In this document: positions 42,786 to 63,690 of the stretch, one piece after another
Layout: each line of letters opens with the position of its first letter
Position numbering within the stretch: the first letter of the stretch is position 1
Assembly (NCBI GenBank): GCA_029582265.1
Contig: CM055837.1
Location: 15,394,777-15,458,776, forward strand
DNA: 64,000 nt
From: Zoroaster sp. YZ-2022
Lineage: Eukaryota; Echinodermata; Asteroidea; Forcipulatida; Zoroasteridae
Direction: 5' to 3'
Program-made: the position numbers and the translations under genes
Notes under the pieces: generated by a model
What the model was told of the DNA's origin: nothing
The model's database searches: none
The model's input: the letters and a program-made list of their open reading frames with translations, nothing else

Positions 42786-42795
42786 TACAGATTCG

Positions 42796-43191: not shown

Positions 43192-43242
43192 AAACTCCGG
43201 GTATAATACATGTAAGGGGATCGATATCGAGGGGGTTGGTGG

Positions 43243-44049: not shown

Positions 44050-44646
44050 ATGCCTTACATATATATGCCTTTACATTATATTGGCACTCGTGGTATTTTG
44101 TTATATGCATTTCCTTCATTTAGTGTTCTTGGGAAGACACTTCAGAAGGTGGCATTGGATCAAGCAACAGGCACCATAATAGCCCCAGTTTGGACAACGC
44201 AGCCATGGTTTGCTAAAATATTGAAAATGTTAGTGAGCCACCCAATTCTACTGCCAGTGAAAGCCACGCTGCTTCAACTCCCAGGCTTGGCCCAACTAAA
44301 CCCACTCAGGAAAAAAAATCAGATTGATGGCTTGCCTGGTTTCAGGCAATCGCTTGAAAAGCGAAACATTTCTGGAGCAACGGCCGACATTATCATGTCA
44401 TCATGGAGGAAAAGCACACACATACAGTACCGTTCATATACTGAAAGATGGTTGCAATTTTGTTCTGAGATCAAAGCGGATCCATTGCATCCAGATATAA
44501 GACACTCACTGTTTCACGCTGGAAGTGGATGCAGTGCACTAAACACAGCTCGGTCTGCAGTATTGGCATTCTGCTCAACAAATGACTGTGTAACTCTAGG
44601 TGCTCACCCGCTTGTACGACGATTTATGAAGGGTGTCTTTAATTAA
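44050..44646 (+). pseudogene. DIRS linker and tyrosine recombinase N-terminal domain
   Basis: 198 open codons. The first half (VALDQATGTIIAPVWTTQPW, PILLPVKATLLQLPGLAQLN) is the conserved DIRS region between RNase H and recombinase. The second half (ISGATADIIMSSWRKSTHIQ, RWLQFCSEIKADPLHPD, AVLAFCSTND, HPLVRRFMKGVFN) is the core-binding domain of the recombinase. The frame stops at 44646, at the micro-element target duplication. Confidence 0.8.
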
Positions 44647-44652
44647 TAAGAC

Positions 44653-44675
44653 CATGGAGGTTTTCTTCCTCCATG
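44653..44675. mobile_element. Micro-element (CATGGAGG...CCTCCATG), 23 bp, with 7-bp TSD
   Basis: CATGGAGG, 7 central bases, CCTCCATG. Flanked by ATAAGAC at 44646-44652 and again at 44676-44682. It sits at the domain junction of the DIRS recombinase and is the shortest of four copies. Confidence 0.75.
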
Positions 44676-44978
44676 ATAAGACCAACAAAATCTCGCTACA
44701 GCGTGACATGGGATGTCAACAAGGTTCTTGACTACCTTCGGTCATATTTACCGGCAGAAGTGCTACCTTTAAAAGAATTAACTTTAAAATTGGTTACGTT
44801 AATTGCTTAACAACAGCGGTAAGGAGCCAAAATTTGTCAACTATGACATTAACTGATGATGGATTTAGATTTGCTTTTGATCAACTGCTTAAGCAAAAGC
44901 AGACCGGGGTATGTTACTGCAAATATAAACTTAGTCTTACACATCAGACATTCAATTGTGTGTATGTGTTACTTTGAC

Positions 44979-45016
44979 CATGGAGGAAGGAAAATAGTCT
45001 ATTTCCTTCCTCCATG
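44979..45016. mobile_element. Micro-element, 38 bp, with 7-bp TSD
   Basis: Left arm CATGGAGGAAGGAAAATAG and right arm TCTATTTCCTTCCTCCATG, an almost perfect palindrome. Flanked by CTTTGAC at 44972-44978 and 45017-45023. Removing it with one copy of the flank restores the reading frame of the surrounding DIRS recombinase. Confidence 0.85.
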
Positions 45017-45235
45017 CTTTGACAGAATATTTAGCTCACACTAAATCTTTGCGAGGGGATGTGAAACAGTTATTAATTAGCTATGTTAAATCATACAAAT
45101 CGGTTTCTACATCAACTATCAGCCGATGGATGAAAGATGTAATGAAACAGTCCGGAATTGATACTAATCAATTTAAACCACATAGTGTGTGAGCAGCAAC
45201 TACTTCTAAAGCTCAGCAAAGCTTAGTACCCATTG

Positions 45236-45491
45236 CATGGGCGGATCCAGAACATTTTTTATGGGGGGGGGGCTGAGAATCAAAAACAGTTATTTTTCAG
45301 TACTACAAAAATTACAATGAAATAATCAAAGGGAGAGACAAACAAAGCACACTGTGGGAATGGGAGTGCGTTCTCCTCTCCCCTCCCTCTCTCTCTCTCT
45401 TTTTTTTATTTAATTTTTTAATTTTTTTAAAAACGATTTTAGGGGGGAGGGGCTACAGCCCCCTTAGCCCCCCCCCCCGGATCCGCCAATG
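45236..45491. mobile_element. G5 MITE, copy 3, inserted in the DIRS recombinase
   Basis: Ends CATGGGCGGATCCAG and CCGGATCCGCCAATG. Flanked by CATTG at 45231-45235 and 45492-45496. The DIRS coding sequence reads through correctly if the element and one CATTG are removed, which independently proves the 5-bp duplication. Confidence 0.9.
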
Positions 45492-45768
45492 CATTGATCA
45501 TATTTTGAATGCAGCAGGATGGTCATCCCAAAGTACATTTGCCAAGTTCTATGACATGACCATACAAAAGGATGTTTCCTTTGCTGAAGAGGTATTAAAG
45601 TGTTCAAATCATTAAAAGAGAATTTAAGAACATAGCACTGATTGATGTACACGTACTTCCATGCATTTCTCTTAATAAACAGCATTGAATTATCAACACT
45701 GAACTCTCTCACACATCTTTGATTTATAGTCTCATGTGGTCACTGAAGTGTGGAATGATGACGTAATA

Positions 45769-46044
45769 GAATCACCAGATTAAACGAAACTTTCCTGGAA
45801 GTTGAAGTTTGATGGAGATTCTACGTAGTCATCAAGAACACGAAGGGATCTCATGCCCTCCCTTTACACTCCCAATGTGGCGTTTGTTTGGTTTTCTTTT
45901 TAAAGATGTGTTTCGTTTGGCTTTGAAGATTGAAGCTACCGGTACGTGGTGCAATCTCATGTGATCCCTTCGTGTTCATGATGACTACATAGAATCTCCA
46001 TCAAACTTCAACTTCCAGGAAGGTTTCGTTTAATCTGGTGATTC
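45769..46044. repeat. Long hairpin directly after the DIRS element
   Basis: Arms of about 88 bp: GAATCACCAGATTAAACGAA ... ACACGAAGGGATC against GATCCCTTCGTGT ... TTCGTTTAATCTGGTGATTC. It starts exactly at the DIRS right border, so it may be a MITE or part of the DIRS terminal architecture. Confidence 0.65.
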
Positions 46045-46544
46045 CTTTGGGATATTCTTTGTAACATGTTATTTTTGGGACTATAACAAACGTCATTGTT
46101 TTCTTGGTCGTCAAAAATGAACCATGGCATGAAAACAAAAGGCGTTTTTGTAACACTGAGTCAACGTAGGTATGACGTCATCATGCATAGTTTATTTTAG
46201 AATGATTGATATTTGACATGAAACAGACGAAAGTCCCATCGTTCCTATTCTTAAATGAATTCAGTCACACTTTCTCAGTGTTCTTTGTCAAGGGAAAACT
46301 GTAAATAAATTGATTTGTATAACATTTTTTAGGAGTTGTGTTAAGTTATTTTACAGTTTCAGTTTATTTCCAATAGCGAGGGTGTAGTGTTTGGGCTAAC
46401 TGTCTGAATGATGTCGAAATTAGGCGAATAAGGAATGGGCGTCACGCGGCATTGCGTTAGCACGTGGAGTTCCTGCTTGAACACATGATGTTCGTCGTAT
46501 GGTGTTAACGCACGTTGTGTCAGCACGTGCCGACGGGGGGGGGG
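46045..46544. other. No gene seen
   Basis: Unique sequence ending in a poly-G run (46536-46549). No exon or motif that I can name. Confidence 0.35.
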
Positions 46545-47691
46545 GGGGGCAATTTCATAGAGTTGCTAAGCACAATAATTGCTTACCAGAAAGATTTGCT
46601 TAGCAGATTTATTTGGTTACCGGCCAAAATGTGATACAAAAAATGTATGCATTATGGCTGGTAGTCTGTATTGCTTACCAGAAAGTGTTGCTTAGCAGAA
46701 TTCTTTGGTTACCAGCTAAACATTTGTACAAAATGTATGCATTATGGCTGGTAGTCTGTTTTATATTGCTTACCAGAAAGTTTTGCTTAGCTGAAATCTT
46801 TGGTTATCAGCTAAACTTCAGAATGTATACATGTTGGCTGGTAGTCTGTTTTATATTGTTTAGCAAACATATTTGCTTACCAGAAAGTGTTGCTTAGCAG
46901 ATTTCATTGGTTACCAGCTAAACATTTGTACAAAATGTATGCATTATGGCTGGTAGTCTGTTTTATATTGCTTACCAGAAAGTTTTGCTTAGCTGAAATC
47001 TTTGGTTATCAGCTAAACTTTAGAATGTATACATGTTGGCTGGTAGTCTGTTTTATATTGTTTAGCAAACATATTTGCTTACCAGAAAGTGTTGCTTAGC
47101 AGATTTCATTGGTTACCAGCTAAACATTTGTACAAAATGTATGCATTATGGCTGGTAGTCTGTTTTATATTGCTTACCAGAAAGTTTTGCTTAGCTGAAA
47201 TCTTTGGTTATCAGCTAAACTTTAGAATGTATACATGTTGGCTGGTAGTCTGTTTTATATTGTTTAGCAAACATATTTGCTTACCAGAAAGTGTTGCTTA
47301 GCAGATTTCTTTGGTTACCAGCTAAACATTCGTACAAAATGTAAACATTTTGGCTGGTAGTCTGTTTTATATTGCTTACCAGAAAGTTTTGCTTAGCTGA
47401 AATCTTTGGTTATCAGCTAAACATTCGTACAAAATGTCAACATGTTGGCTGGTAGTCTGTTTTATATTGTTTAGCAAACATATTTGCTTACCAGAAAGTG
47501 TTGCTTAGCAGATTTCTTTGGTTACCAGCTAAACATTCGTACAAAATGTAAACATTTTGGCTGGTAGTCTGTATTGCTTACCAGAAAGTGTTGCTTAGCA
47601 GATTTCTTTGGTTACCAGCTAAACATTCGTACAAAATGTAAACATTTTGGCTGGTAGACTGTTCTGCGTAGCAGCTCTATGAAATTGACCC
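46545..47691. repeat. MITE L1 with internal 90/112-bp array
   Basis: Outer inverted ends CAATTTCATAGAGTTGCTAA and AGCAGCTCTATGAAATTG. Between them GGCTGGTAGTCTG recurs about 10 times at alternating 90- and 112-bp spacing, giving a 202-bp higher-order unit. The units are built from TGCTTAGC, GGTTACCAGC and AAAATGTATGCATTATGG. Related compact copies are at 30222, 53610 and 54348. Confidence 0.8.
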
Positions 47692-47699
47692 AGCGCATT

Positions 47700-48060
47700 T
47701 TGTTCTCTGAACAGAATCTGAAAGTAAATGTGGGCAACGAGAGAAAAAAGGGGGGTTGCCGCCCATAATGGAACTTATTTTGCTCGGTCATGTGAAAGAA
47801 AGAACACGAAGAGATCTAATTAAATCATGAGCTTCCTCTGACCATGGAGGAAGAAAACTGCTTTCTTCCTCCATGCTCTGACTGAGGTTACCGGTGCCTC
47901 AAGGCATTATGTTACCCTTTTCTAACTAGATTCTCTTGTTATCCGGTGTTTCATTATGCCACGGTTGACTGTCTTTCCCGTGTTGGTTACTCACGTCACC
48001 TTAAAAGTCAATGCACACCTCAGTGAAAATACCCAATGACAAAATTAGCAAATAATCATC
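47700..48060. other. Spacer with a micro-element
   Basis: Unique sequence apart from the micro-element at 47843. No gene seen. Confidence 0.35.
47843..47875. mobile_element. Micro-element, 33 bp, with 7-bp TSD
   Basis: Arms CATGGAGGAAGAAA and TTTCTTCCTCCATG are perfect complements around 5 bases. Flanked by CTCTGAC at 47836-47842 and 47876-47882. It lies in otherwise unique sequence. Confidence 0.85.
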
Positions 48061-49020
48061 TTAGCGAAAAGTTGACATCAAGAGAAGGTACAGCATTGGT
48101 AATGTTGGCAAAACTGCTTCTATGAGTACGCTTACTCTCTTTGAATCAAGATATACATTGAAGTGAAGGTACAACATTGGTAATGTTGGTAAAACTGCTT
48201 CTATGAGTATGCTTGCTCTCTTTGAATCAAGATACACATTGAAGGGAAGGTACAACATTGGTAATGATGGCAAAACTGCTTCTATGAGTACGCTTACTCT
48301 CTTTGAATCAAGATATACATTGAAGGGAAGGTACAACATTGGTAATGTTGGCAAAACTGCTTCTATGAGTATGCTTACTCTCTTTGAATCAAGATGTACA
48401 TTGAAGGGAAGGTACAACATTGGTAATGATGGCCAAACTGCTTCTATGAGTATGCTTACTCTCTTTGAATCAAGATGTACATTGAAGGGAAGGTACAATA
48501 TTGGTAATGATGGCAAAACTGCTTCTATGAGTACGCTTACTCTCTTTGAATCAAGATATACATTGAAGGGAAGGTACAACATTGGTAATGTTGGCAAAAC
48601 TGCTTCTATGAGTACCGTACGCTTACTCTCTTTGAATCAAGATATACATTGAAGGGAAGGTACAACATTGGTAATGTTGGTAAAACTGCTTCTATGAGTA
48701 TGCTTACTCTCTTTGAATCAAGATATACATTGAAGGGAAGGTACAACATTGGTAATGTTGGTAAAACTGCTTCTATGAGTATGCTTACTCTCTTTGAATC
48801 AAGATATACATTGAAGGGAAGGTACAACATTGGTAATGTTGGAAAAACTACTTCTATGAGTATGCTTACTCTCTTTGAATCAAGATATACATTAGGGAAG
48901 GTACAACATTGGTAATGTTGGCATAACTGCTTCTACTTTGAATCAAGATATATATTGAAGGGAAGGTACAGCATTGGTAAGGTTGGCAAAACTGCCGTTT
49001 ACAAGTATATTAACTCTCTT
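48061..49020 (+). repeat. 81-bp satellite, about 12 copies
   Basis: Unit AAGGGAAGGTACAACATTGG ... GCAAAACTGCTTCTATGAGT ... TCTTTGAATCAAGATATACA, period 81 (for example 48241, 48322, 48403). Being a multiple of 3, it keeps both strands open over hundreds of bases. I do not regard those ORFs as genes. Single copies occur at 1803 and 27683. Confidence 0.9.
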
Positions 49021-49029
49021 TGATAATAT

Positions 49030-49290
49030 GAAAATGACATCACATGTTTACAAAAGAGCCCCAAAGGTTAAACTGCGCCGGGCTCTAAAATTACATTGGT
49101 CTATGACAAGAAACCATAAAATCTGATATTTTGAGATGTCAGCAGAACAATTCTTTGGCCTAATTTGATTTATTTTTAATAAGGCACTAACATTATATCT
49201 CAAATCTTATTCATCTTAAACTTTAAAAAATCTTGATGTTATGTGGAGAAGTACAAAATGTACAAACTCTGCATACAAATACACACACTT
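49030..49290 (-). repeat. Compact relative of the 19965-21365 element (single 32-bp unit)
   Basis: Inverted relative to the large copy: TTTACAAAAGAGCCCCAAAGG, GGTCTATGACAAGAAACC (one unit), ATTTTGAGATGTC..., GGCACTAACATTATATCTCA and TGCATACAAATACACA. It directly follows the 81-bp array. Confidence 0.75.
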
Positions 49291-50204
49291 TTGACCGGCA
49301 GGAAATCACCTTGATACTCTTAAGGTCACGCAAAATTATACCTTATCTTGAATGTGAAGTTGCAAAGGTACAAATCATCGCAAGTAATGACTCTGTCACG
49401 TGTTCTCATTTAAAACGAATGTAGGACATAGACTGGTCTCATGTCTTTATCCTATCAAGGATATAGACAGGCTCTGGCCGTACCATTCAATGGATTTAAT
49501 TGGATACGTTGCGCCGAGGCTAATGTGACACGACTACGAATGTAACACTACTACGTGTGTGCGTACTTCTGCCATCCAAATCTGGGCTGCCACTCTTGAT
49601 TTGCTGTTTCCCCCACCACGCATGCGCATTTCCCCTACATTATCCCTACATACTTTGTATAAATTTTTCCCTACAAAATTTTGTTTTCCCCGACGAATTA
49701 GTTATTAAATAAAACTTGTAGGTATGCAGGTATTCGATATTTGATCTTATCAATAAATCGATACCTCATGGACTGACGACCATGCCTTGCATAGTTAGGG
49801 GTAGATAGGGTCCTTAAACCTGTCGTAACAGGTAGCCTATCTAGTGATGGTGTCAAGAAAAAAAGAAAAAAACACCTTGGGGGTAGTGGGAGCCCGATAG
49901 CCCTGTAAGGCAATCCCCTAGTGCTGGTGACACGAACATAACACTTGGGTAGTGAGAGCCCATTAGCCTGGTAAGGCAATCTCCTAGTGATGGTGTTGCA
50001 AACAAAAACACCCCCAATTATGGGAAAATAATTGCATATGATCCTAATGTCCACTTCAAAAGTTACATACCGCATCGCTCGTCGCGCGGGTAACCAAGGA
50101 GCGCGTCCCTCAGTGAGACGCCAGGCTGGGGTCGAAAAATATGCTACTGGCTGTGACAGGTTGTCTCTGTCCTCCAAAAGTCCCATCAAGTCACACGAAA
50201 CAAT

Positions 50205-50960
50205 GTCCTCGGACCGAAGTTTCTCTAACAAGTCACGCTCAAAGCGAAAAAATGCTGTCAAATTTGTTAACATCAACATTTCAACACTAAATATACGAAC
50301 CCTATCATGCGACATTAAATTTGCAAACTCTATCCAAGAAGCAAAAACTAAATCTTGACGTTCTTGCCTTACAAGAAGTCCGTCGTTGTGGCTCTGGTAC
50401 CATTGAATTTGACTCTGATAGTTTACTAGGTTGGCAATTTGTCTGGAGTGGATATAAGTATAAGAGCAAGGATGGAGTAGGTTTTATTTTGGCACCTCAT
50501 GTGAAGTTGGTTGATACGCATATTCATCTTGAAGCGAGAATACTATCTGTTCGTGTTATCATTCATGGTTTGTTCCTAACTTTGACATGTTCTTATGCCC
50601 CTACTGAGTGCAGTGTAGAGTCTGCAAAATCTCACTTTTATGGCAAACTCAGACAAGCTAACAACGATATGCTCAAATATAACCTTTAAATCCATTAACA
50701 TGGGGATTTCAATGCATCTATCGGAATGGATTCTAAAAATAGTGGTGCTTGGGACAATGTTTTAGGTTTTAACAACTCTTCCCAATTGGAAACCAATAGC
50801 AATGGTGAATCCTTTTGAAATTTTGTTCAGAAAAATAGGCTTAGAATCATCAATAGCATCTTCCGGACAAAGAGAATTCATAGGAAACATGGGTCCATAA
50901 GCCAACAGGTAAAGCAAAACGCCTTGATTATATAACCACCAGGAAATATATATCAAGATT
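50205..50960 (+). pseudogene. LINE APE-type endonuclease, frameshifted
   Basis: Blocks in order: NISTLNIRTL (frame 1), then after a shift near 50340 LDVLALQEVRRCGSG, KDGVGFILAP, LTLTCSYAPTE, and in another frame HGDFNASIGMDS near 50700. The QEVR, SYAPT and GDFNA motifs are the catalytic landmarks of APE-like LINE endonucleases. Several stops and shifts make it inactive. Confidence 0.8.
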
Positions 50961-51482
50961 TATCACATCTTGTAGAGCATATCGTAAAACTGCATCCATC
51001 TTTGACACAGATCACTATATGGTAACAATGACATTGAAATATCCTACATCAAACAAGAAACTTTTTCAATCATTTTCTAAAAAGCAAACTCCTAAACCAA
51101 AGTTGAATGTATCTCTTCTGCGCGACAACAAAGACGCTGCTAAACTCTATTCAGATCAGCTAGACTCAAAACTCGGGTTAGAAGATATTCCAAATGACTT
51201 GGAACAAATAGCAGATGATATTACGGTAGCGATACAAGATTCGCTAGAAGCTGTTTGCCCAAAATCATCCCTAATAAATCTTCTGAACCCTGGCAAGATC
51301 AAGAATTACAAAATCTAATGAGCAAGCTGCATAAAATCCAAAAATAGGGCTCTTCAAAAGCAAATTCGTAAGAAGAGAAAAACTTTAAAGATCAATATTT
51401 TCATGAAAAAGCCGTTGCTATAAATACTGCAGCAGAGGCAAGACAAGTTGAGAAAGAATTTCAACTTGCTAAAACTAAATCT

Positions 51483-52412
51483 ATGCACTCTACCACCTCA
51501 AAAATCACCATTTCAAATGAAAAGTTAATAAAGCATTTCAAAGAGCATTTTTCTGAAAAGGTTATTGACGTACCACCTGAGTTAGAACATCCAAATAGTT
51601 ATGATTACTTGTTGGATACACAGGTTGAAGTGAATGAAGATCCACCTAACCTTGATGAAATTGCTGAAGTAGTTAAAACATTTAAGAATAACAAATCTGC
51701 TGGTACAGATAATCTTCACTGTGAAGGGCTGAAGTACCATTGTAGTAAGAATCTTCTTGTGTATTTAACTATGCTGACTTCTCTTGTATGGTCTCTAGTG
51801 GCTGTCCCAGAATCTTGGCTTGCTATGAAGGTAGTTTGTCTCTACAAAAAGGGTTTGAAGTCTCTAGCAGAAAACTACTGGGCATTGTCTATTGGTTCAA
51901 ATCTTAGTAAAATAGTTCCTCGTATAATTTTAAATAGGTTACAGGAAACCTATGAGCTGAATATTTCTGAATTTCAGTTTGGTTTTAGAAAAGGTCGGTC
52001 AACTGTGGATGCAATCTTTGTCAGCAAGAATGTTATACAAAAGCATGCTGGACCTCTTGTTTTGGTCTTTGTTGACTTAACAGCGGCATATGATTATATC
52101 CCTAGAGATTTTTTGTTTCGGGTTTTAGAACTACGCACTGGTGCCAAACTCCTTATCTACATTCTCAGAAAATTATATGATGGTACAACTGCATGTATTT
52201 CTGGGACTAAAGTAAAATTTGATATTTTATCTGGTTGTCGACAAGGAGGCCTAGAAAGTCCAACACTGTTTAACTTCTATTTTGATTTTGTCTTGAAAGT
52301 GTGTGCAGAGGCTATTGACAGAAAGTATCCATGTGGATGGGGTGTCTCGTTCGATTACCGTATTTCTAGCGAATGCACTAACCATATCATCAATGAACAT
52401 TCTGATATGTGA
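51483..52412 (+). pseudogene. LINE reverse transcriptase, truncated before the YADD-type motif
   Basis: 309 open codons. Motifs in order: NNKSAGTDNLHCEGLKY, PESWLAMKVVCLYKKG, NLSKIVPRIILNRLQE, FQFGFRKGRSTVDAIF, VFVDLTAAYDYIPRDFLF (motif A, with its Asp), GCRQGGLESPTLFNFYF (motif B). After GWGVSFDYRIS the similarity ends, so motif C with the catalytic Asp pair is lost. The GRSTVDAIF and CRQG blocks suit the RTE/CR1 side of the non-LTR tree. The exact clade needs a search. Confidence 0.85.
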
Positions 52413-53284
52413 TAAATTACGAAGATGAAAATTAACAGACTTACAAATTGATGATACATGATATTAATTAACGTTTTCCCCTACAAAATTTTGTTTTCCC
52501 CTACGAATAAGTTATTAATTAGGCCTAACTTCGAATTAAATAACTAGGCATAATGACCAGATGTGTAGGCCTTCGTGAATGAATTAAAGGGAATATAATT
52601 ATAGTCTTCCCAGATGAACGTGAAAAAGGCCAAATGGCAACCCTGGTACAGTGTGCAGACAGCATTAACCGCAACAGCATTCTTGAAGTATTGCAATAGT
52701 AGTGTGACACTCGATATTAGGTGCGCGTATTGTTAGGTGTTACCCTAACTGGGGTCAATCAGAGTTTAAACTACAAGTGAGAGCGCTTCATTTTTTCTTG
52801 ACTCACAACAAACGCACTGGACCCGAAAGAAGTTTTAAGTTTCATGTTTATTTCTACGTTCATCACAATCATGAAAACTTCAAATACATAACAATGACAA
52901 CAAAGAAAAAATGTAAACGCAATATCAAGATTGATCCTAGTCATTCAGAACAAGGTAATAGGTGGGGGGAGGGGGGGGGGGGTGGCAGAAAAAGCAAAGC
53001 TTTTCAAGTCCGGGTCCTTGAAATCCCAATAAGGCAAAATGCGCATACTTAATTTAGAACACCATAGCGATATGGCTAATAACTGCGTTATACTGATATG
53101 ATTAAAGCAGTAGGCCTATATATCACGTACATAAATATATAATTTTGTTACAATATTTGTGGATTCCCCTACTCCCCCCTACAGTATTTCTATTTTTCCC
53201 GCAGGGACCCCCTATTCCCTACACTTTACTAAAATACCCTACGGTAGGGATTTTTCCCCACGAGTGGCAGCCTTGATCCAAGTC

Positions 53285-53608
53285 GCTGGGGATATTGCAC
53301 GTGAACGCCCATCATAGCGCGCAAGGTCAAAGTTGAATCTCGGGGAACATGGCGGCCGTGCGGCCGGTATCTGGCGTAATGCACGAGCCTCACGTCAGAT
53401 CTTCAGCCTGTAGGACATTAGTAATTACCAAATTATAACATTAACGAATCAGTATCTAAACGTTAACTGGGTGTAAAGTTGGTACAAGTATTAGTCTTCA
53501 TGAGAAATTATTTTGACTGAATTATGAATTGTCTTCATCTTGGAAACCACTTTACAAGCGCGCGATCACCACAGGAGAGCGTGACTGACAGCAAACTTTC
53601 GACAGTCA
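53285..53608. other. Unique sequence, slightly GC-rich
   Basis: Contains ATGGCGGCCGTGCGGCCGG near 53349, which could mark a first exon or promoter, but I found no splice-consistent coding exon. Confidence 0.3.
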
Positions 53609-53609
53609 G

Positions 53610-54118
53610 GCGACAATTTCACAGAGCAGCTAAGCACAAAAATCGTCCCTAATTTGCCATAGTGACCAATCCAATCAATTTTTAAGTTTTCCCGCCCATT
53701 AGTACATTCAGGAAGAGACCTACCATTGTATCTAATCCACATGCATGTATTCCTTATAGTTTTGGAGATAGAGCATGCATTCAAATGACGAATGCTCTAA
53801 CTGGCTATTTTTGTAATTTGGCAAAGTGACCAATACCGCATTGGCCACTATGCCAACTTAATTCGGGATTGGCCACTATGCCAACTTAATTCGGGATTGG
53901 CCACTATGCCAACTTAATTCGGGATTGGCCACTATGCCAACTTAATTCGGGATTGGTCACTATGCCAAATTAATTCGGGATTGGTCACTATGGCAAATTA
54001 GGGACGAAATTTGCTGAGCACAGAAAAATTATACTTAGCAAAAATTGGTTACCAGCCACATCTTCACGTAATGTATATTGCTTTATGCTTAATAGCAGCT
54101 CAATGTAATTTAGACCGG
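53610..54118. mobile_element. MITE L1, interrupted copy
   Basis: Left CAATTTCACAGAGCAGCTAA, right TAGCAGCTCAATGTAATTT. It is split at AAGCACAAAAA|AATTTGCTGAGCAC by the TCGTCCC MITE. Confidence 0.65.
53643..54007. mobile_element. Palindromic MITE (TCGTCCC ends), copy 2, with 28-bp array
   Basis: Starts TCGTCCCTAATTTGCCATAG and ends TATGGCAAATTAGGGACGA, inverted relative to the copy at 18610. Near the right end a 28-bp unit (TTGGCCACTATGCCAACTTA ATTCGGGA) is repeated about five times, where the other copy has only one to two. Confidence 0.8.
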
Positions 54119-54347
54119 GGCTCAAGGCATGGTGGTGTTAATCATAGAAATCCGCGCTTACAATCACAATTTTCTGCTTAGAGGATAAGCAAAGAGGTTT
54201 TGCACTATAGCCGTGTTCGCGGTAAATTGTTGTTGCGCACAAGCAGAAAGTCCGTGCTAACCCGTGAAATAGGCTTATAGGAATTATCTGCACTACAGTC
54301 AGCGCTAGTATTTCGCTTACGGTATTGCAAAATCATATAATTGAACC

Positions 54348-54496
54348 CAGGGGCCAATATTTCAGCTAAGCAGAGAATTTTGCTAGGTAAATATGTTTGC
54401 TAAGCAACAGACTACCAGCCAGTTTGTATTTTGTATGAAGGTTTGGCTGGTAACCAAAGAAATCTTGAAAGCAAATTGTTTGCCCCTGGGCACAAT
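54348..54496. mobile_element. MITE L1, compact copy
   Basis: CCAGGGGCCAATATTTCAGC at the left, then CAACAGACTACCAGCCAG, GGTTTGGCTGGTAACCAAAG and TTTGCCCCTGG at the right. About 150 bp, inverted relative to 30222. Confidence 0.6.
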
Positions 54497-54499
54497 TTC

Positions 54500-54955
54500 A
54501 TGGTTCTGCATGGCTGCGCGCCCGTCTGCCAGCAGTGTTTTACATCGGGGTCAAATAGGCCTATCTGTTAAATTGTGCGTGTACATTATATAAACTCTCA
54601 AAAAACACAATGAGAGTACATCTTTAACCGTTATACTCTCCCGTCAGACTATTATATGGATAGAATCCTTCTATTAGTAGTTCCTTCATCTTCCTCTTTC
54701 ATCAAGGTGCCATCATCAAAGATCAGGATATAAGACATTTACGCAATTAAGTTGGGAAATTGTGATCTGGAGGGAGCTAGAGTCGACCAACGACTTCGGT
54801 TCCTTTCTCAGTTCACCCCAACCCCCAGGGACATGAATACAGAACAAATGTGTCTGCCACATCTATGATCAGGATATAAGACATTTGTGCAATATTGTTC
54901 AATTAATTTGCTCCAGAGAGCAAGCGACGATGATCGAAGTCGGTTCCCGAATCAG
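54500..54955. other. Unique sequence with a short duplication
   Basis: GATCAGGATATAAGACATTT occurs at 54721 and 54867, spaced 146 bp. No gene seen. Confidence 0.35.
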
Positions 54956-54959
54956 AATA

Positions 54960-55418
54960 CTATGGTGTTCTATAATGGACACCTACCCGGCGCCTTTTTC
55001 GCGGCGACTTTTTGTTTTTGGACGGCGACTTTTTTTTTTACGCGGCGACTTTTTTTTTACGCGGCGACTTTTTGTTTTTGGACGGCGACTTTTTGTTTAC
55101 GCGGCGACTTTTTGTTTTTGGACGGCGACTTTTTTTTTACGCGGCGACTTTTTGTTTTTGGACGGCGACTTTTTTTTTACGCGGCAACTTTTTGTTTTTG
55201 GACGGCGACTTTTTGTTTTTTAAAACAAAAAGTCGCCGTCCAAAAACAAAAAGTCACCGTCCAAAAACAAAAAGTCGCCGCGTAAAAAAAAAGTCGCCGT
55301 CCAAAAACAAAAAGTCGCCGTCCAAAAACAAAAAGTCGCCGCCCAAAAACAAAAAGTCGCCGCGTAAAAAAAAAGTCGCCGCGTAGAAAAAACACCATAG
55401 AATTATAGAACACCATAG
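54960..55418. mobile_element. Giant hairpin MITE built of GGCGACTTTTT units
   Basis: Outer ends CTATGGTGTTCTATAAT and ATTATAGAACACCATAG, flanked by AATA on both sides. The left arm (54998-55206) is a tandem of CGGCGACTTTTTGTTTTTGG and ACGCGGCGACTTTTTTTTT, and the right arm (55215-55390) is its complement. The axis is near 55211. All ORFs here are by-products of the arrays. Confidence 0.85.
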
Positions 55419-55419
55419 A

Positions 55420-55898
55420 ATACAGAACTAACTTATCACATTTCACATTTCAAAACGGACATTTGTCGTGTGCTCATTCCTAAAGATTTATACAATTTTA
55501 ATAGGGTATTAAAAACCACACAGAAAAAGAAAATACTGTAACGAAAGTACCTATAAGGGAAACGAAAATGCCACTACGGGAAGGCACCTAACCCTATACG
55601 GAAAAGCAAAGCACCGCTACACGGGAAAGCGAAATCGTGCCTGTATCCCTGTCGGGAAAGCACCCCTTTACAGGAAGAGAAAAACGTCACACTGTAGGAA
55701 AACTTTATGACTGACAGCATAATTATAGAAACCTATATATGTCTACGGCCAAGCGCTCAAATCCATTGTGAACATTGCGGGGGTAGGGGGGGTGCATGAG
55801 GTAAGCGCGCAGGGCGAAGCCAGAATGGCCCGCCTAAGTGCCCCGGAAGATTTAGGGTTGTAAATGCTCTGTAATTCACTCTGGGTCATATAATAAAA
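55420..55898. repeat. Unique with short ACGGGAAAGC-type repeats
   Basis: 55545-55700 repeats AGGGAAACGAAAAT, CGGGAAAGC and CAGGAAGAGAAA phrases at roughly 25-40-bp spacing, probably a decayed minisatellite. No gene seen. Confidence 0.35.
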
Positions 55899-55899
55899 G

Positions 55900-56175
55900 T
55901 TGAAGCGCCATGGTTGAACGGTTTAGTGCATCGGATTTGTGTTCTGATGGCTGAGTCGTCAGAATGTGGGTTCGAATCCCAACTGCGACCATGGTGCTTG
56001 TGTCCTTGAGCAAGACACTTTACCATAATTGCTTCTCTCCACCCAGGAGTAACTGGGTACCTGTGAGGGCAGAGTTGGTTGTTGTGTTTGATTAGCCCAT
56101 ATGCGCTGTAATGGCAGCAATTGAGCTGAATACCCCCCAGGGAGCTGAGATGGATTCATGAATGATTTATGAATT
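55900..56175 (+). repeat. tRNA-like SINE S1, complete head
   Basis: Head GCGCCATGGTTGAACGG ... GGGTTCGAATCCC (A and B boxes), then body CTTGTGTCCTTGAGCAAGAC, CAATTGAGCTGAATACCCCC. It stops at GAATGATTTATGAA and lacks the GCGCTATATAA tail of the other copies. Confidence 0.8.
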
Positions 56176-56458
56176 TTTATTGAAAAGTATTAAAAAAAGG
56201 TTTTCCCGGTCAATTTCAGCAAATAAGCAGCCAATTTCACTTTCATACGTTCGTATTAAAGCGATTTTGCCTCTGCAGTTGCTACTGTGTTTCGAATTAT
56301 GAATTCAAGCTTTCAATTTCATTTTTAGGCATGCGAATTCATTTAGCATTATATTCAATTTAGCATATACGTCGTTCTTTTTAGTAATGCACATTCGTTA
56401 TCCAATTTAACAGAGTTTTATCCTGTCTAGAATACATGCATATCAATTTTAGGGGTAA

Positions 56459-56801
56459 GGCCAAGTAAAAAAAATACCAGTTGATCGTCCTGGTTTTTTG
56501 AAAAAGAGGAGGATGTGGGCCTTTTTATTTTTTATATTTTTCCAAGATGGCCGCCAAGCATTTAAATTCAAAATGGCCACCAATTTTTCAGTTTGAAATC
56601 ACCGCCAACTTTTTTTTTATAGCTATCGAACAAGTAGTTGAGTGTTTGATGTATTTTGTTAAACCCAAGTAAAAATACATGAAAAATTTACTATTTTTGT
56701 GGACAAGTATAAAAAATAAAAAAATAAAATAAAAAAAAGGATGCGGCCTCAAAAAAGGATGCGGGCGGGGACGATCAACTGGTATTTTTTTTTACTTGGC
56801 C
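56459..56801. mobile_element. Harbinger-like MITE H2, copy 2 (inverted)
   Basis: Ends GGCCAAGTAAAAAAAATACC and GGTATTTTTTTTTACTTGGCC-type, flanked by TAA (56456-56458 and 56802-56804). It is inverted relative to 29456. Confidence 0.85.
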
Positions 56802-56804
56802 TAA

Positions 56805-57489
56805 TAGAGAATTAATTAGAAAATATGGCAGAATTTTTAAGAAGTGGGAAACTATTGGGAAACTATTATTACGTCATCCACTCTTGAATTATTGGAAGGA
56901 ATCTGTATCCCCATCCTCCCTCCCTCGAGATTTGAGGCCCTGCCCATGGTAGACCAAAGTCAAGAGTCAAGACGTTGTATTGCCAGCCAGTGTATATTGA
57001 ACATGGTCGTAAACGAACCTAGATTAGCTTGTTTCTATGTATTGACTCCATCTGAGAAGACAGTCACAAGATGACACTTAATTTGACATTTTCATCGTTC
57101 ATCAAAGTCCAAATCATTTTCACCTCGCATTTATTATTCATCACGGGAACAAGTGGCTTATACTTACCATCTGTTTAATTTAAGGTGTTGATCCTGATGG
57201 AACTTTGTATTTAACTGTGGTGTCCCAAAGGAGAAGGATCGGAAATAATCCAAACCCGCCAAAAAGCGCTCCAAGTGCGTTGACGTGACTGATTACTATA
57301 GTTAAGTCATCGTTTTGCATTTTCCTGTATGTGGTATTAAATCCATGTGCATTTACGTGTGCAACATTACGGCTTAACATGCCACTTCCCGAGTGCCTTT
57401 TGTCGGATTTTTGGCAATCACGGAAATGATAGTTAGAGGCATCACGTGCCATACCAGTGCACGTGGTATCTATAATAATGTACGGTAGC
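56805..57489. other. Possibly genic unique sequence
   Basis: Low repeat content compared with its surroundings. Apart from the ORF at 57180-57452 no exon can be supported. Confidence 0.35.
57180..57452 (-). CDS. Hypothetical small protein, 90 aa, one membrane segment
   Basis: Not recognised. From ATG at 57452 the frame gives a polar first half (HFRDCQKSDKRHSGSG, NAHGFNTTYRKMQNDD) and one hydrophobic segment (VNALGALFGGFGLFPILLLW, about residues 59-78), then KYKVPSGSTP and stop. Fifteen bases past the stop is a strong donor-like ATG|GTAAGTATAA (57164-57175), which would make this an exon that ends in 3' UTR or is read in another frame. The sequence around it is unusually free of repeats. It may be a chance ORF. 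Confidence 0.25.
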   Translation of the reverse strand: MARDASNYHFRDCQKSDKRHSGSGMLSRNVAHVNAHGFNTTYRKMQNDDLTIVISHVNALGALFGGFGLFPILLLWDTTVKYKVPSGSTP

Positions 57490-57589
57490 CCTGGGGAACA
57501 TCGAAGACTTCATCTCCAAAACCCGAACAATGACGTCAATACTGTATAACGTCAAATTCACGACATTGCCTCTAAAACGTGACCTTTAA

Positions 57590-58745
57590 AGGTCCTGTGA
57601 AGAGTGTGTTTACCAAACTTTATTTTTTGGTGTTGTTTTATTGATTGGTATGAATTAAAAACAATTTTAAATGTTTTTTTTGTGTCGAGTGGATTATTAA
57701 TTGTTTATCTAATAATCAAAAATTGACCCCCGAATTTTCGAAGTTTTAACGAAACGTTCGTGACGTACACAAAGGCAGAGAATTTTACACTCGCGGAGCT
57801 AGGCGGTATGGTTTGGTGCCAGACTTTGATCGGATAACAGTCTAATAATTATAGAGGGTCGAGTTGTCCCCGTCACGGTACAATGCACGCTTAGCGTTGT
57901 CATGCACACACAGACGCATTTTAGGCCAGAAGCACGGGAGAATTACTCTACGAAAAGCTAGCAGTGAAAAACATGTCCGAAAGAGAGGAGAGTTATCCGT
58001 GAAACGCAGCGCAAGCCCCCATCATGCGGTCGGAACACACACCGAAGGCAATGCTAACATTACGGTGTTATTTTATGAAATAACAGAAACAGTTGAGTCA
58101 AAGTTCTGATCATTAAAAAAACAACTCAAAACAAGCGCAGGCATAATGAAAAAGGTTTAATGTTTTTATGTTTGTCTTGCCAGGATATAAAATCAGACAC
58201 GATGTTTTTATTAATGCGGAAAATCACGGCATGTTTTCATGCCGTGAACACTGAAACGGTGAGCATGGTGTGAACATGTCGTTTTGCACGGAAGTGGACT
58301 GGGTTATGCATGGGAGTATTACTAAATGGCCACTTACCCTGAGTCTTTCTCGCTTTAAAAAAATACCTCTTTTCTTCGTTGGAGCCTTCACAGCCTTCTT
58401 ACTTAGCGGGAATATTGTTGGCATTGCATCTGGTAGCAGCATGGCCTTATATAAACTTATAAAGCCATACCGAACTGGCTGTGAAGGCCCCGTTCAAAGC
58501 ATGTCTGCTCGAAGTGTGCACTACATAAGTGGTGCGCTGTATACGACGCATACATGGGCAAGTACCGTGGATCGCGGATCGCCTCAGTGTACGTCACGAA
58601 TTTTATGTTAATGAGGGGTATGGGCGTGTCGAAAAGCACCCCTAAATTTAAAAACGTGAGGGGAAAAATTTACAAATGACAAATATATGTTTCAGTAGGC
58701 ATACTTTATTGTATACAATGAAAAAACACCTATTTCATAGGACCT
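57590..58745. mobile_element. 1156-bp TTAA transposon, Kolobok-like
   Basis: Ends AGGTCCTGTGAAGAG and TTTCATAGGACCT, each outside-flanked by TTAA (57586-57589 and 58746-58749). TTAA targets with an AGG terminus are typical of Kolobok. ORFs at 57864-58109 (plus), 58270-58611 (plus) and 58224-58442 (minus) show no transposase motif, so it is probably non-autonomous. The repeat around it (GACGTCAATAC, ACGTCAAATTTCA motifs) is the family seen at 25530. Confidence 0.75.
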
Positions 58746-59029
58746 TTAATTTCAGGTCAATGTTTACGTCAAATTTCAAGACTTTTATGCATATTGATTA
58801 AAATTTAACATGACGTAAATTGTAAATTTTGCCTCCAGAACGCGAAATTTTAAATGAGGGTCAATACTGACATCAAATTTCACGACTTTACCTTCGTAAC
58901 ATGACAATTTATACGCTAACAGTGAATTCACGAATTTGCCCCCAAAAACGCGAAACCAGTATTCAAATTACCGGTTTTAACCCGAAACCGCAGCTTATAA
59001 ATAACTTATAACAAACAAACAACTCAGCA

Positions 59030-59233
59030 AATCTTCACCGCTTAGAAACACAATACATTTGCAGTCAGCAAACCCAATAGCTCTAGGTTTGCCGACTGAA
59101 AATTTATTCTGGACCAACCCTTGTTCTAGTACCTTTGATGCTTCATTTGCCGACTGAGGCTCTAAATGCCGACTGAAAAAAATTATCGGTGGTGTCACGT
59201 CACCCCCACAAATCCCCCGCTCGCTACGGGCCT
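59030..59233. mobile_element. hAT-like MITE fragment, relative of 31813
   Basis: Shares GACTGAAAATTTATTCTGGA, CCTTTGATGCTTCATTTGCC and CCCCGCTCGCTACGGGCCTG with 31940-32110. The left end is not present. Confidence 0.55.
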
Positions 59234-59480
59234 GAATTGCAGCCAAAATTGCTGGATCGATTGGAATTCAGCCGCACCTTTTCACATAAGGGTATGAAGG
59301 TTTGCCTAATTTGTGCGGCCTCTCTTAGCCACCATACTTTGTGCATGGAAAATTTGTATCACGTATTTCACTGGTTGGCAAAAAAGATTACCCCCCCCCC
59401 CCCAAAAAAAAAGCGCATCACCGCACCGATTTTGAAGCCGACCTATGACCAGAAACATGAGACATTTATGTTCAGCCTTA
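59229..59480 (-). mobile_element. Harbinger-like MITE H1, partial
   Basis: Begins inside the family (TTGCAGCCAAAATTGCTGGA) and runs through GGCCTCTCTTAGCCACC, ATCACGTATTTCACTGG and GACCAGAAACATGAGAC to AGCCTTA. The 5' end is lost at the junction with the hAT-like piece. Confidence 0.7.
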
Positions 59481-60130
59481 GCGCCTTCACAGGCAGTCAC
59501 TGCCCAATGCTTGATTGATAGTTGGCGTGGGTGATAGTTCATAAGTAGGCCTACACGCTATAACTTTGAAAAAAAAAATCCGATCTTTATACTGCTGTAA
59601 TGAACATACAAGAACTGTATTGTTTCTGCAGGAAATTTTAAATTGGTATACATACATGGACCGGGTGTGCTGTAGGCCTGACCAACGATAGCCATTTTAT
59701 TTGAGTAGTGCACCTAACTTATAAACGGAAAAAGGCCCCAAGCACGTATGTAGCAGACACTAATGGCAATGATTATAGCCTAACGTAGCGGCAGAAAATA
59801 TCTTAGTTGTTAACTTCCCTTTTCAGGACTTTTATCTAATTCAATTAACCTATTTTCAAGGAACTGCATTTAAAAGCTCAGCTGGAATGACGTCATTAGT
59901 TAAAGGCTTATGCTTCTTTATTCACTTGAAAGTTTAATATAATTTGAAATATTAATTTAAAAATAGGAATTTTTAAAATTGTAACCCAAAATAAATATAA
60001 TGTAAGCCAAAATAAATATATCACGTCATAAAAAGAAAACACAGCTGTGAAAATAATAGAAACGGGCAGAAAATGATACAGAAGCAGAAAATTAATACAA
60101 ACGTATGGAAACAGAAACAGAAAACAGCAA
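59481..60130. other. AT-rich, no gene
   Basis: Poly-A, AAATAAATATA and ACAGAAAATGATACAGAAGC phrases lead into the satellite that follows. No exon seen. Confidence 0.35.
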
Positions 60131-60135
60131 ATAAA

Positions 60136-60661
60136 CCATGATACAGAAAAGTAATCATGACACAGAAAAGTAATCGTGACACAGAAAAGTAATCGTGACA
60201 CAGAAAAGTAATCATGACACAGAAAAGTAATCGTGACACAGAAAAGTAATCGTGACACAGAAAAGTAATCGTGACACAGAAAAGTAATCGTGACACAGAA
60301 AAGTAATCATGACACAGAAAAGTAATCATGACACAGAAAAGTAATCGTGACACAGAAAAGTAATCGTGACACAGAAAAGTAATCATGACACAGAAAAGTA
60401 ATCATGACACAGAAAAGTAATCGTGACACAGAAAAGTAATCATGACACAGAAAAGTAATCATGACACAGAAAAGTAATCATGACACAGAAAAGTAATCGT
60501 GACACAGAAAAGTAATCATGACACAGAAAAGTAATCGTGACACAGAAAAGTAATCATAACACAGAAAAGTAATCATGACACAGAAAAGTAATCGTGACAC
60601 AGAAAAGTAATCGTGACACAGAAAAGTAATCATGACACAGAAAAGTAATCATGACACAGAA
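60136..60661. repeat. 19-bp satellite (AATCRTGACACAGAAAAGT), about 27 copies
   Basis: Very regular 19-bp period. Nearly all variation is at one site, where units read either TCGTGAC or TCATGAC, and the two forms are interspersed. A looser set of ACAGAAAC-type phrases continues to about 60860. Confidence 0.9.
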
Positions 60662-60861
60662 ACTGGGCAGATCTGAAACGCAAACAGGTATAGAAATAGT
60701 AGCAGAAACGCAACCATGGAACATAAATGTCAACATGAAACACAGACAAATATGTAAATATGAAACTGAAACCGAAAAGTTATCATGACAAAAACAGACA
60801 CCGAAAAAAACCTCCCAAAACAGAAACAGATGCAGAAACGAAAAACAAAAACAGATTTCCT

Positions 60862-61133
60862 GAAAAAGAAACAGATTTACAGATGAGTTTAATCAAGGGC
60901 ATTTATTTATAAGTCGACAAACTGTCATCTGTGCTGTTTCAAGTTCAACACTGTGTTTCGTTTACTTCTTAGCAATACCTATGGAGTGTAATGGCTTTAT
61001 CGTAACAGCGTTAATCACAACCCTATGGGAATCGGTTATTATAGCCTGTGATCTGTTCCTTTCCTGATCAAATTACATAACCTGTTTACAAAATATTACG
61101 CTTGGGGGCTTATGAAAACATGGAGGGCCATTG
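60862..61133. other. No gene seen
   Basis: Unique sequence between the satellite and the next G5 MITE. Confidence 0.3.
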
Positions 61134-61138
61134 GCGGA

Positions 61139-61362
61139 TCCAGGGGGGCTAAGGGGGCTGTATCCCCCCTAAAATCGTTTTTTTTTTAAAGAGAGAGAGA
61201 GAGAGAGGGGGGGGGGGGGAGAGGAGGTGAGAACGCACTCCCATTCCCACAGTGTGCTTTGTTTTTATCTCCCTTTGATTATTTCATTGTAATTTCTGTA
61301 GTACTGAAAAATAATTGTTTTTGATTCTCAGCCCCCCTAAAAATGTTCTGGATCCGCCCATG
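61139..61362. mobile_element. G5 MITE, copy 4
   Basis: Ends CATTGGCGGATCCAG and CTGGATCCGCCCATG. Flanks AGGGC and GGGGC (4 of 5). The interior has (GA)n, poly-G and CACAGTGTGCTTTG, so it is inverted relative to copies 1, 3 and 5. Confidence 0.8.
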
Positions 61363-61586
61363 GGGGCTTATTTAAAGCAGCACACGCCATTTGAAGTGTG
61401 AAAAGACGATCTAAAATAGAAGTTATAAAGTTGGTGTCGCCGTTCATCTGTCTCAAATATTTCCTTAAAAAATATAAATATGTATCGAACACAGACGACT
61501 CTCATATCAGTGAAAATGACCTGAAACATTCAGATTGTTTTCTGTATTAGTTTCTTGTATGTATGGGTGCATTTTCAAACATTTCA

Positions 61587-61766
61587 TCATTCTTATAAAG
61601 TATGGATGCATTTACAGACATTGGTTGGTTTCTGTACACATCTCTTGATTCTTATAAAGTATGGATGCATTTACAGACATTGGTTGGTTTCTGTACATAT
61701 CTCTTGATTCTTATAAAGTATGGATGCATTTACAGACATTTTACCGAAAGCATACACAGCCTTTTT
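61587..61766. repeat. 59-bp tandem repeat, 3 copies
   Basis: TCTTATAAAGTATGGATGCA recurs at 61591, 61650 and 61709 with almost no change. A single diverged copy (ATTCTTATAAAGTATGAATACA) lies near 35511. Confidence 0.8.
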
Positions 61767-61769
61767 AAA

Positions 61770-62345
61770 CTTGATGTGAAGCCGCGGGTAACATTTTTAC
61801 CGAAATGCATTAAATGGTAAATTCAATTTCCAAGTATTCCTCATATGAGTCATTCTAAATGGTACCTATTAATACCAAGAGGGTGAGATTTTGTAATATG
61901 AACGGCTTATGTCTTGATCTTCGTACTTCTCAGAACGTAATGAATGGTGACACGACACTCTAAATTCTTCGGTTCATTTCCGATATCAACAGGCAGTTTG
62001 GTGTAACATTTCCGCCCAGGCCACTGCTTTAAATATGTAATATTCCGTGTGTTTCAATATTTCACATGCAATTTTGTGTTATCTGGTACCGCAATTCTAT
62101 TTTCTATGTCAAAGGGAAGTAAGTAATCTCAAAAAGAGATATTAATGTTTCTAGACAGATGAAGCATGGCCAGTCCCAATGTGAGTCCATAAGTGAATTA
62201 ACGACGAGCCCCACCGTACATTCATCGAGGCACCTAATTTTCTCCTAATGCTTTTGATAAATATTTTAAAGAAATATTAAGTTTACGGGGTAACACCATG
62301 TGTAAAAAATCATTTCTTGGAAGAAATTATTTCTGAACAGAACAC
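61770..62345. other. No gene seen
   Basis: Unique AT-rich sequence. GGGGTAACACCATGTGT near 62287 resembles the outer end of the palindromic MITE at 18885. Confidence 0.35.
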
Positions 62346-62350
62346 GTAGT

Positions 62351-62583
62351 CATGGGCGGATCCAGAACATTTTTTAGGGGGGGCTGAGAATCAAAAACAA
62401 TGTTTTTTCAGTACAGTACTAAGTAGGTCACCTCCTTATGTTTATCCTGCACACTGTGGGAATGGGAGTGCGTTCTCCCCTCCCCCCCTCTCTCTCTCTC
62501 TCTTTTTTTTAATTTAATTTTTTTTAAACGATTTTAGGGGGGGGGGGGCTACAGCCCCCTTAGCCCCCCTGGATCTGCCAATG
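62351..62583. mobile_element. G5 MITE, copy 5
   Basis: Ends CATGGGCGGATCCAG and CTGGATCTGCCAATG. Flanked by GTAGT at 62346-62350 and 62584-62588, a perfect 5-bp duplication. Confidence 0.85.
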
Positions 62584-62589
62584 GTAGTA

Positions 62590-63338
62590 AGGATAGTTAT
62601 TGACATTTCAAACATTGTGCTCATGTTCGTCCGTCTTCAGGAAGATGCTGGACAAATGTTCAGTGAAATATTTCGTTTGACTTAAACTTTTTATATTTTT
62701 ATATAAAATATATAATGTAGCCTAGGCAGTAAACTATGAATGAAACAATATTTAAGCTGATTTTTCTTATTATTTTGTAGTCACCAATCAGCGTTGCGGA
62801 AATCGTTTTTCCCACCAGAGTTTAGTATAGTGAGAAAAAAGTAGGCCCTTGGGACAAGGTAAAGCTCTGAGCTTGTTCAATTTACACTGTTTCCCCCAAC
62901 GAAAGTCTGCACAATAGGCCTATCCAAAAGACATGCATATCTAAAGAACGATGACTTTGTTCATTGACTTCGACATATACACCCTAGTTCAAAAGATATG
63001 TCTAACGGAATTCCTCTGAGATGGCTGAGTTTTTTGTACCGGTACATATGCTGTGAATTAAAGTTGCAATTCACTATACAAAAGTATCACTGTTTAACTT
63101 CAACAGAACATGTCAACGTTGTCACCAAAAGGTTTCCCGATTGGGACATATTGGTATCCATCAAATTGAGATACTATGTTGTTCCCGTTAGTAAACTTAC
63201 TTGATGTAAGGTTGAATGCTGATTTTCCTCGAAATCTTTCTGTCTGAGGTACTTTCATTAAAAGAAATTAGTAAGACATTTTTCAACTGAAATTTCGACT
63301 TCATGAGACGATAAATTTCATGTTAGAATACGAACAAT
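62590..63338. other. No gene seen
   Basis: Unique AT-rich sequence. The 68-codon ORF at 62998-63204 has no recognisable domain. Confidence 0.35.
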
Positions 63339-63339
63339 C

Positions 63340-63690
63340 TGAAACCCTTCTATGACAGCATGGAGGTAGAATTCTACCTCCATGATGACAGCAAAGGTCA
63401 AAATCAGTCAAAAATGTTGATATACTTGCCAAGGTATATCTAGTGCACTTAACAGTCGAACGCTGTCAAACCTTACGTGTAGTAAGTACATTTACAGGTC
63501 AAAATGAGCCGACCGTTTTTGACTGGAAAAGGCATTATCTTGTATTGTTGAGGGTGGTCAAAATGACAGTAAAAACCAGTCAAAAATGCCCCTGTGTGCA
63601 CATTTGGGTCAACAGTCAAAAAAGGCAGTTGACTGATTTTGACCTCTACAGCTACTTGCCACAAAAGTTCAGCTACAGTAGGAGGGATTG
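63340..63690 (-). mobile_element. piggyBac-type MITE P1, copy 4, interrupted
   Basis: Reverse orientation. The left end AAACCCTTCTATGACAG aligns with the family terminus (AACCCTCCTACTACTGC) and continues, after the micro-element and one 7-bp repeat, as CAAAGGTCAAAATCAGTC. The right end is GCTACAGTAGGAGGGAT. The TTAA has decayed at both sides. Confidence 0.75.
63359..63384. mobile_element. Micro-element, 26 bp, with 7-bp TSD
   Basis: A perfect 26-bp palindrome with arms CATGGAGGTAGAA and TTCTACCTCCATG. Flanked by ATGACAG at 63352-63358 and 63385-63391. It lies inside a P1 MITE whose intact copies at 5732 and 8176 show the site without it. Confidence 0.85.

Follow-up and report, generated by a model that had tools for sequence, protein, structure and literature searches.

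Palindromic micro-inserts with 7-bp target duplications in the genome of the sea star Zoroaster as probable excision footprints of a cut-and-paste element, most likely of the P superfamily

A stretch of 64,000 nucleotides from the genome of the sea star Zoroaster sp. YZ-2022 (contig CM055837.1, positions 15,394,777 to 15,458,776; hereafter the window) contains four inserts of 23-38 bp that start with CATGGAGG, end with CCTCCATG and are each flanked by an exact 7-bp target duplication. We conclude, with a probability of about 0.9, that these inserts and others like them are excision footprints left by a cut-and-paste element whose ends read CATGGAGG... and which most likely belongs to the P superfamily. 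The case for footprints is strong, and the statement that they arise by a process working like P-element excision is well supported. That they were left by a P-superfamily element is only probable, since no transposase gene is tied to these ends and the P family that we traced has others. Overall, the genome appears to hold thousands of such repair scars.

The positions and flanks given for the four inserts in the original prediction are all exact: ATAAGAC, CTTTGAC, CTCTGAC and ATGACAG are identical (7/7) to the left and right of copies 1 to 4, respectively. The pattern CATGGAGGN{0,28}CCTCCATG has four matches in the window, which are the four inserts only, and the comparison with shuffled sequence that had been proposed gave no match in any of 100 dinucleotide shuffles of the window. 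The description of the inserts as palindromes holds in full for the copy at 63359, which is perfect; most are imperfect, and the copy at 44653 pairs just 8 nt per arm.

The proposed scan of the whole genome (1.0 Gb) revealed a huge excess, with 5161 matches to CATGGAGG, 0-28 bases and CCTCCATG compared to 8 for the reversed control. This pattern ends at 44 bp by design. A version covering 45-75 bp finds 226 sites in the genome and 4 in the control, and among the matches listed many are either a pair of footprints with a single 7-mer between them or copies of a 48-bp repeat.

From the genome-wide matches we sampled 50 places, one of which is present twice (L004, L005; L numbers denote loci) and four of which come from the window, leaving 43 sites distinct by their flanks. 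Both target copies are kept as an exact 7-bp duplication at 37 of these 43 sites. The other sites are L006, L007, L015, L017 (where the flank reads N), L036 and L041; for L006, L036 and L041, a paralogous copy of each has a 7/7 match. At sites with a 7/7 match, in two sets of fetched loci, the longest exact flank repeat is 7 and never more. The duplications at the 37 sites follow GTYNRAC, with T and A three bases outside. Counted on one strand, G is first in 20, T second in 30, A sixth in 29 and C last in 27 of them; the target profile itself is symmetric by construction because both strands were counted. A target preference had been suspected from flanks ending in GAC: it exists, but it is wider than GAC.

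Several of the sites have empty paralogues that carry the 7-mer only once. The site filled in L040 is empty in L025-L030, that of L030 is empty in L025-L029 and L040, and that of L025-L029 is empty in L040. The window contains another example, a tandem repeat with a unit of ~81 bp (48061-48972) and long open frames on both strands, which is empty at the site where the same repeat in L031 is footprinted.

Long elements with the same ends are found in the genome. The 20-mer CATGGAGGAAGRAAAAYAGA occurs at 640 places (325 + 315 by strand) compared to 0 in the control, and facing pairs as well as follow-up fetches were drawn from the first ~100 of these places. The longest, L095, measures 2072 bp and has a 33-nt repeat at both ends with GTGTAAC on each side (7/7). 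L094 (751 bp, 31-nt repeat, duplication 6/7) matches both ends of L095 without its middle, as a deleted relative. L093 is reduced to 131 bp, with ATGTAAC on each side (7/7), and combines ~119 bp from one end with 20 nt from the other; its two ends have 20 nt in common. Finally, L096 and L097 are 40-bp inserts of exactly 20 + 20 nt of the parent end, with a 7/7 duplication in both.

The length of the arms is limited in a specific way. We measured arms in inserts of the AAGG type against the end of the parent L095, the other end-types being without a known parent. In 19 AAGG-type inserts, the match to the parent end never exceeds 20 nt; six arms reach 20 nt, four of which are from L096 and L097, loci picked via the 20-mer. 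For the AAGGAAAACAGA end-type, with L095 as parent, the inserts are built from the outermost bases of the parent at both ends. Compared with the parent, the 19 joins comprise 5 that are flush, 1 with one shared base and 13 with 1-12 bases matching neither arm. These extra bases may be filler or variants of the ends. Variable joins and extra bases are seen across the inserts, as is expected of footprints.

We also took 20 more places of the 20-mer from contig C1 (CAGA-bearing, in list order and new; plus the TAGA variant L098, which was set aside). Among the 19 CAGA places, 15 depart from the parent at exactly 20 nt, two depart at 21 nt, and two extend further because they are element ends: L109, which contains a small internal repeat, and L117. 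Some are apparent copies of one site (L099/L101/L107; L100/L111; L114/L115), and with copies merged 11 of 13 stop at exactly 20 nt. Of the remaining two, L113 has its duplication immediately after the 20 nt, so that only L103 may be a case of 21 nt. All seven two-armed CAGA places have a 7/7 duplication, with arms after merging of 20 + 14, 20 + 19, 20 + 15, 20 + 12 and 20 + 8 nt; in the L099 group the second arm is changed and the duplication is found 33 bp further on.

One locus shows a repair product with a single arm. In L025-L029, sequence that lies ~23-25 bp further on in the empty L030 and L040 comes immediately after the left duplication ATCAGAC and a 14-nt arm. By comparison with these empty counterparts, the other arm was lost together with flanking DNA at this locus. 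A flank loss of ~23-25 bp fits a resected break, unlike a transposed micro-element. The single ends in L080 and L023 were also considered as full elements and rejected, no partner end being found for either.

The inserts are diverse. As originally noted from their differing middles, they are not one duplicated locus: 39 distinct inserts are found among the 43 sites. Their length is 21-41 bp, with at most 34 bp in 37 of the 43. We distinguish at least four end-types, AAGGAAAACAGA, AAGAAAACA, TAGAATTAG and TAAAAATAG, plus variants. For inserts of at least 24 bp, both arms are of the same end-type in 32 out of 39 (expected fraction 0.44, p value = 9e-7). Self-complementary centres of perfect palindromes (n = 6) were dropped as evidence because this property is true of every even palindrome.

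Footprints are also found in a row with one 7-bp duplication between them (L087 1326-1382, compared with L023 near 9406; C1:46969624; C4:39987557). In L087, the second footprint is located exactly at the duplication belonging to the earlier arm, and a similar stretch in L023 has no second footprint; it looks as though a later element had gone into the very duplication made by the earlier one. L040 has a further footprint outside the exact pattern at 1370-1409, consisting of GTGGAAG, CATGGAGGTAGTTTTATATCTCCATG and GTGGAAG.

We propose that the footprints would arise as follows. An element would insert at a GTYNRAC-like site and duplicate 7 bp. At departure, its transposase would cut one strand right at the tip of the element and the opposite strand ~20 nt inside, and each end of the donor site would keep a 20-nt single-stranded tail of terminal repeat. 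End joining would then trim the tails and seal them, either directly or by way of short microhomology or a small number of added bases. The product would consist of two arms of ~8-20 nt in inverted orientation, one from each end of the element, between the two copies of the duplication, and would mimic a tiny palindromic transposon. In this scheme we infer the identity of the enzyme, the geometry of the single-strand cuts, with a cut at 20 nt that is new, and repair by end joining (with microhomology). The genome counts and the long elements agree with the earlier view that the inserts come from a cut-and-paste element that has CATG ends and duplicates 7 bp.

P-type transposases are abundant in this genome. 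The P transposase core domain (PF21787) has 150 scored matches, compared to 0 in 14 control genomes. Three long open frames contain the P-type helix-turn-helix, RNase H and GTP-binding insertion domains, the C-terminal RNase H piece being seen in two, and two of the three match the solved Drosophila P transposase (E = 5.4e-41 and 2e-37). A target duplication of 7-8 bp is a trait of the P superfamily, and the 7 bp found here are like those of Galileo. With CATG ends, a 7-bp duplication and many P genes, the kinship to P-type elements suggested by the original prediction is plausible, though no P gene is tied to the ends.

Attempts to connect the P genes with the footprints gave other ends or none. 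One P-type family (L056/L088/L089 and L063/L090/L091), whose copies are ~95-99% alike in the compared flanks, was tried as parent and rejected, as the breaks in homology lie at CCAAAGATCGTA ends. Both copies of this family, L056 and L063, have GTCTAGTC by both CCAAAGATCGTA ends. Occurrences of CATGGAGG in the P loci L045, L049, L051 and L053 (L075-L078) were rejected as element ends, the sequence outside the supposed end being shared as well. In a second P group (L092), no ends were found in 5.5 kb.

A number of observations weigh against our interpretation. No link was found between CATGGAGG ends and any transposase gene, the homology of the L056/L063 family, the one traced, ends in CCAAAGATCGTA, and the THAP domain is in none of the three P frames scanned. 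The search for a long element with the same termini and a transposase, as originally suggested, succeeded for the termini, in elements of 2072, 751 and 131 bp, and not for the transposase: L093, L094 and L095 show none and have no resemblance to the P transposase frames compared. A long parent is known for only one end-type (AAGGAAAACAGA), and no parent was found for the other end-types, including those of window copies 1, 3 and 4. The 17-nt inner cut of Drosophila P is not matched either; a deep cut fits but its distance differs, the arm ceiling being 20 nt rather than 17 nt, and we do not file the element as a proven P element. Microhomology is little supported because a shared base is found in only 1 of 19 joins. 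Furthermore, the CAGA places tell only whether arms pass 20 nt because they were chosen by the 20-mer, and six of them (L102, L103, L104, L105, L106 and L112) are without a second arm in the ~100 bp fetched.

Some of these points would also suit a deep-cutting cut-and-paste transposase outside the P superfamily, the alternative that survives best and that we nonetheless regard as unlikely. Target duplications of 7 bp are not exclusive to P elements, no P gene is tied to the ends and the arms reach 20 nt rather than 17 nt. Such an enzyme would, however, have to share CATG ends and a GT...AC 7-bp target like that of Galileo in a genome where P-type transposases are abundant, and we know of no other animal superfamily with so deep an inner cut.

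It is less likely still that the inserts result from aborted gap repair, as extreme internal deletions left when copying off the sister strand was interrupted. L093 has the structure expected from one-sided copying followed by joining, and L094, with both ends of L095 and without its middle, also fits. For these two loci, aborted gap repair merges with the footprint reading. In the 21-41 bp class, by contrast, no arm runs clearly past 20 nt, a ceiling that plain joining of tails explains.

The original prediction held that the palindromes of 23-38 bp are themselves mobile, being cut, moved and inserted by a transposase, or else the product of hairpin insertion. Perfect duplications and empty sites would be expected of mobile micro-elements, and a few identical inserts do occur at different targets: a 32-bp insert at L030, L031 and L032, a 26-bp insert at L018 and in the window, and a 40-bp insert at L096 and L097. 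If anything still speaks for mobile micro-elements, it is above all these recurrent inserts; we interpret them as the same join being used repeatedly, as in Drosophila. A micro-element should present one insert at many unrelated targets, whereas nearly all inserts sampled here are distinct and few recur. Where an end-type has a known parent, its arms represent a 33-nt repeat cut back to differing lengths, with a limit at 20 nt, and a unit with an 8-nt arm such as copy 1 would be without most of its terminal repeat. The one-armed form with its flank deletion argues against both transposed units and hairpin insertion, as do the limit on the arms and the differing insides. We tried a dispersed 48-bp sequence, the only dispersed family with an identical middle examined (~21 places among the matches listed, length variants included), as a true micro-element and rejected it: the flanks are alike in 6/6 fetched copies and therefore this sequence rides in a larger repeat. 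Taken together, mobile micro-elements are a very improbable explanation.

Chance is ruled out by the shuffles and the reversed-control counts, and with the empty paralogous sites these leave chance palindromes or an assembly artefact, in favour of which nothing was found, as a negligible explanation.

Table 1. Proposed footprints and target duplications in the window (positions counted from its first base)
Feature	Position	Strand	Basis and remarks
Left 7-bp duplication ATAAGAC, copy 1	44646-44652	+	Flank comparison
Footprint 1, 23 bp	44653-44675	+	Arms of 8 nt and 15 nt (CATGGAGGAAGAAAA); no parent of this end-type found
Right 7-bp duplication, copy 1	44676-44682	+	Flank comparison
Left 7-bp duplication CTTTGAC, copy 2	44972-44978	+	Flank comparison
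Footprint 2, 38 bp	44979-45016	+	Arms match the L095 end over 16 and 15 nt and are separated by 7 bases
Right 7-bp duplication, copy 2	45017-45023	+	Flank comparison
Left 7-bp duplication CTCTGAC, copy 3	47836-47842	+	Flank comparison
Footprint 3, 33 bp	47843-47875	+	Two AAGAAAAC-type arms, bases at the join differ; no parent found
Right 7-bp duplication, copy 3	47876-47882	+	Flank comparison
Left 7-bp duplication ATGACAG, copy 4	63352-63358	+	Flank comparison
Footprint 4, 26-bp perfect palindrome, TAGAATTAG-type end	63359-63384	+	Identical insert at another target, L018; no parent found
Right 7-bp duplication, copy 4	63385-63391	+	Flank comparison
Probable related footprint, element with CATAGAG ends	4704-4735	+	GTTAGGC, CATAGAGGTAGCTCTATG (4711-4728), GTTAGGC
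Possible one-armed footprint	10396-10416	-	14-nt arm CATGGAGGAAGGAA (10396-10409) by GTTGAAC target; partner duplication not found

Features of the window are collected in Table 1. Footprint 2 probably represents a TAGA variant of the L095 end with longer arms, and footprint 4 would have been joined at AATT. The single CATGGAGGAAGGAA end has three AACTGCCACTT copies nearby (10079-10409) and may be a footprint with a single arm or else an old element's end. Two open frames precede copies 1 and 2 (42739-44646); by eye they resemble parts of a DIRS-type element, a Pfam search gave no match for them, and copy 1 stands just after the stop of the second. Elsewhere, the window contains an Ig-domain protein gene in one frame (33284-35122, 612 aa), with 60% identity over 99% to proteins of Acanthaster planci and Patiria miniata, and a reverse transcriptase frame (PF00078, 51372-52412).

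We consider it an even question whether the full picture holds, namely a variant of the P superfamily that cuts 20 nt inside, makes 7-bp duplications and has left thousands of healed scars at germline sites, greatly outnumbering the surviving elements, as a natural archive across the genome of end joining on breaks of a single fixed geometry. The only gauge of scars versus surviving elements is the sample of 20-nt ends, in which 2 of 19 are element ends. No description of natural genome-wide P footprints is apparent from titles in the literature searched, with most subscription journals outside the search. Annotation could mistake such scars for the smallest transposons. Each scar would instead document a single double-strand break whose initial geometry is known, and several thousand of them would show how end joining proceeds naturally in the germline, including trimming, added bases and one-sided loss, beyond the usual laboratory animals. 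The 20-nt ceiling also predicts the cut position of a transposase from genome sequence alone and suggests that P-like elements do not all share the 17-nt offset of Drosophila P.

Miniature inverted-repeat transposable elements have inverted repeats, a target duplication and no coding capacity. L093 (131 bp) would qualify as one of them, whereas the 21-41 bp class has neither a conserved inside nor complete terminal repeats.

Other counterparts are found in the P superfamily. Pdre2 of zebrafish has terminal repeats starting with CAT, a P-type transposase and demonstrated excision, but differs by its 13-bp repeat CATACCTGTCAAC and 8-bp duplication (PMC10983969). Galileo makes 7-bp duplications at a palindromic target, GTATTAC or GTANTAC, compared to GTYNRAC here, and has long terminal repeats compared to 33 nt here (PMC4168063). 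The Drosophila P element shares with our element a CATG end (junction table of PMC2895639), a terminal repeat of similar length (31 bp compared to 33 nt), cut-and-paste movement and a deep inner cut (PMC7776569). Its transposase cuts 17 bp inside the element, leaving 17-nt single-stranded extensions, and the target duplication is 8 bp (PMC7776569); the corresponding values here would be 20 and 7, and no transposase is seen in the three long copies.

The closest likeness is to the products of P excision. In spn-A mutants, P{wa} excision junctions consist of the duplication, at most 17 nt per end, microhomology or templated filler, and the duplication again (Chan, Yu and McVey 2010, PMC2895639, Table 1), and a single join accounted for 14 of 68 junctions (PMC2895639). 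The Zoroaster footprints are alike in build and in the recurrence of the same join. They differ from these junctions (PMC2895639) by their 7-bp duplication, 20-nt ceiling and CATGGAGG... termini, and in being natural and genome-wide rather than the outcome of a laboratory cross.

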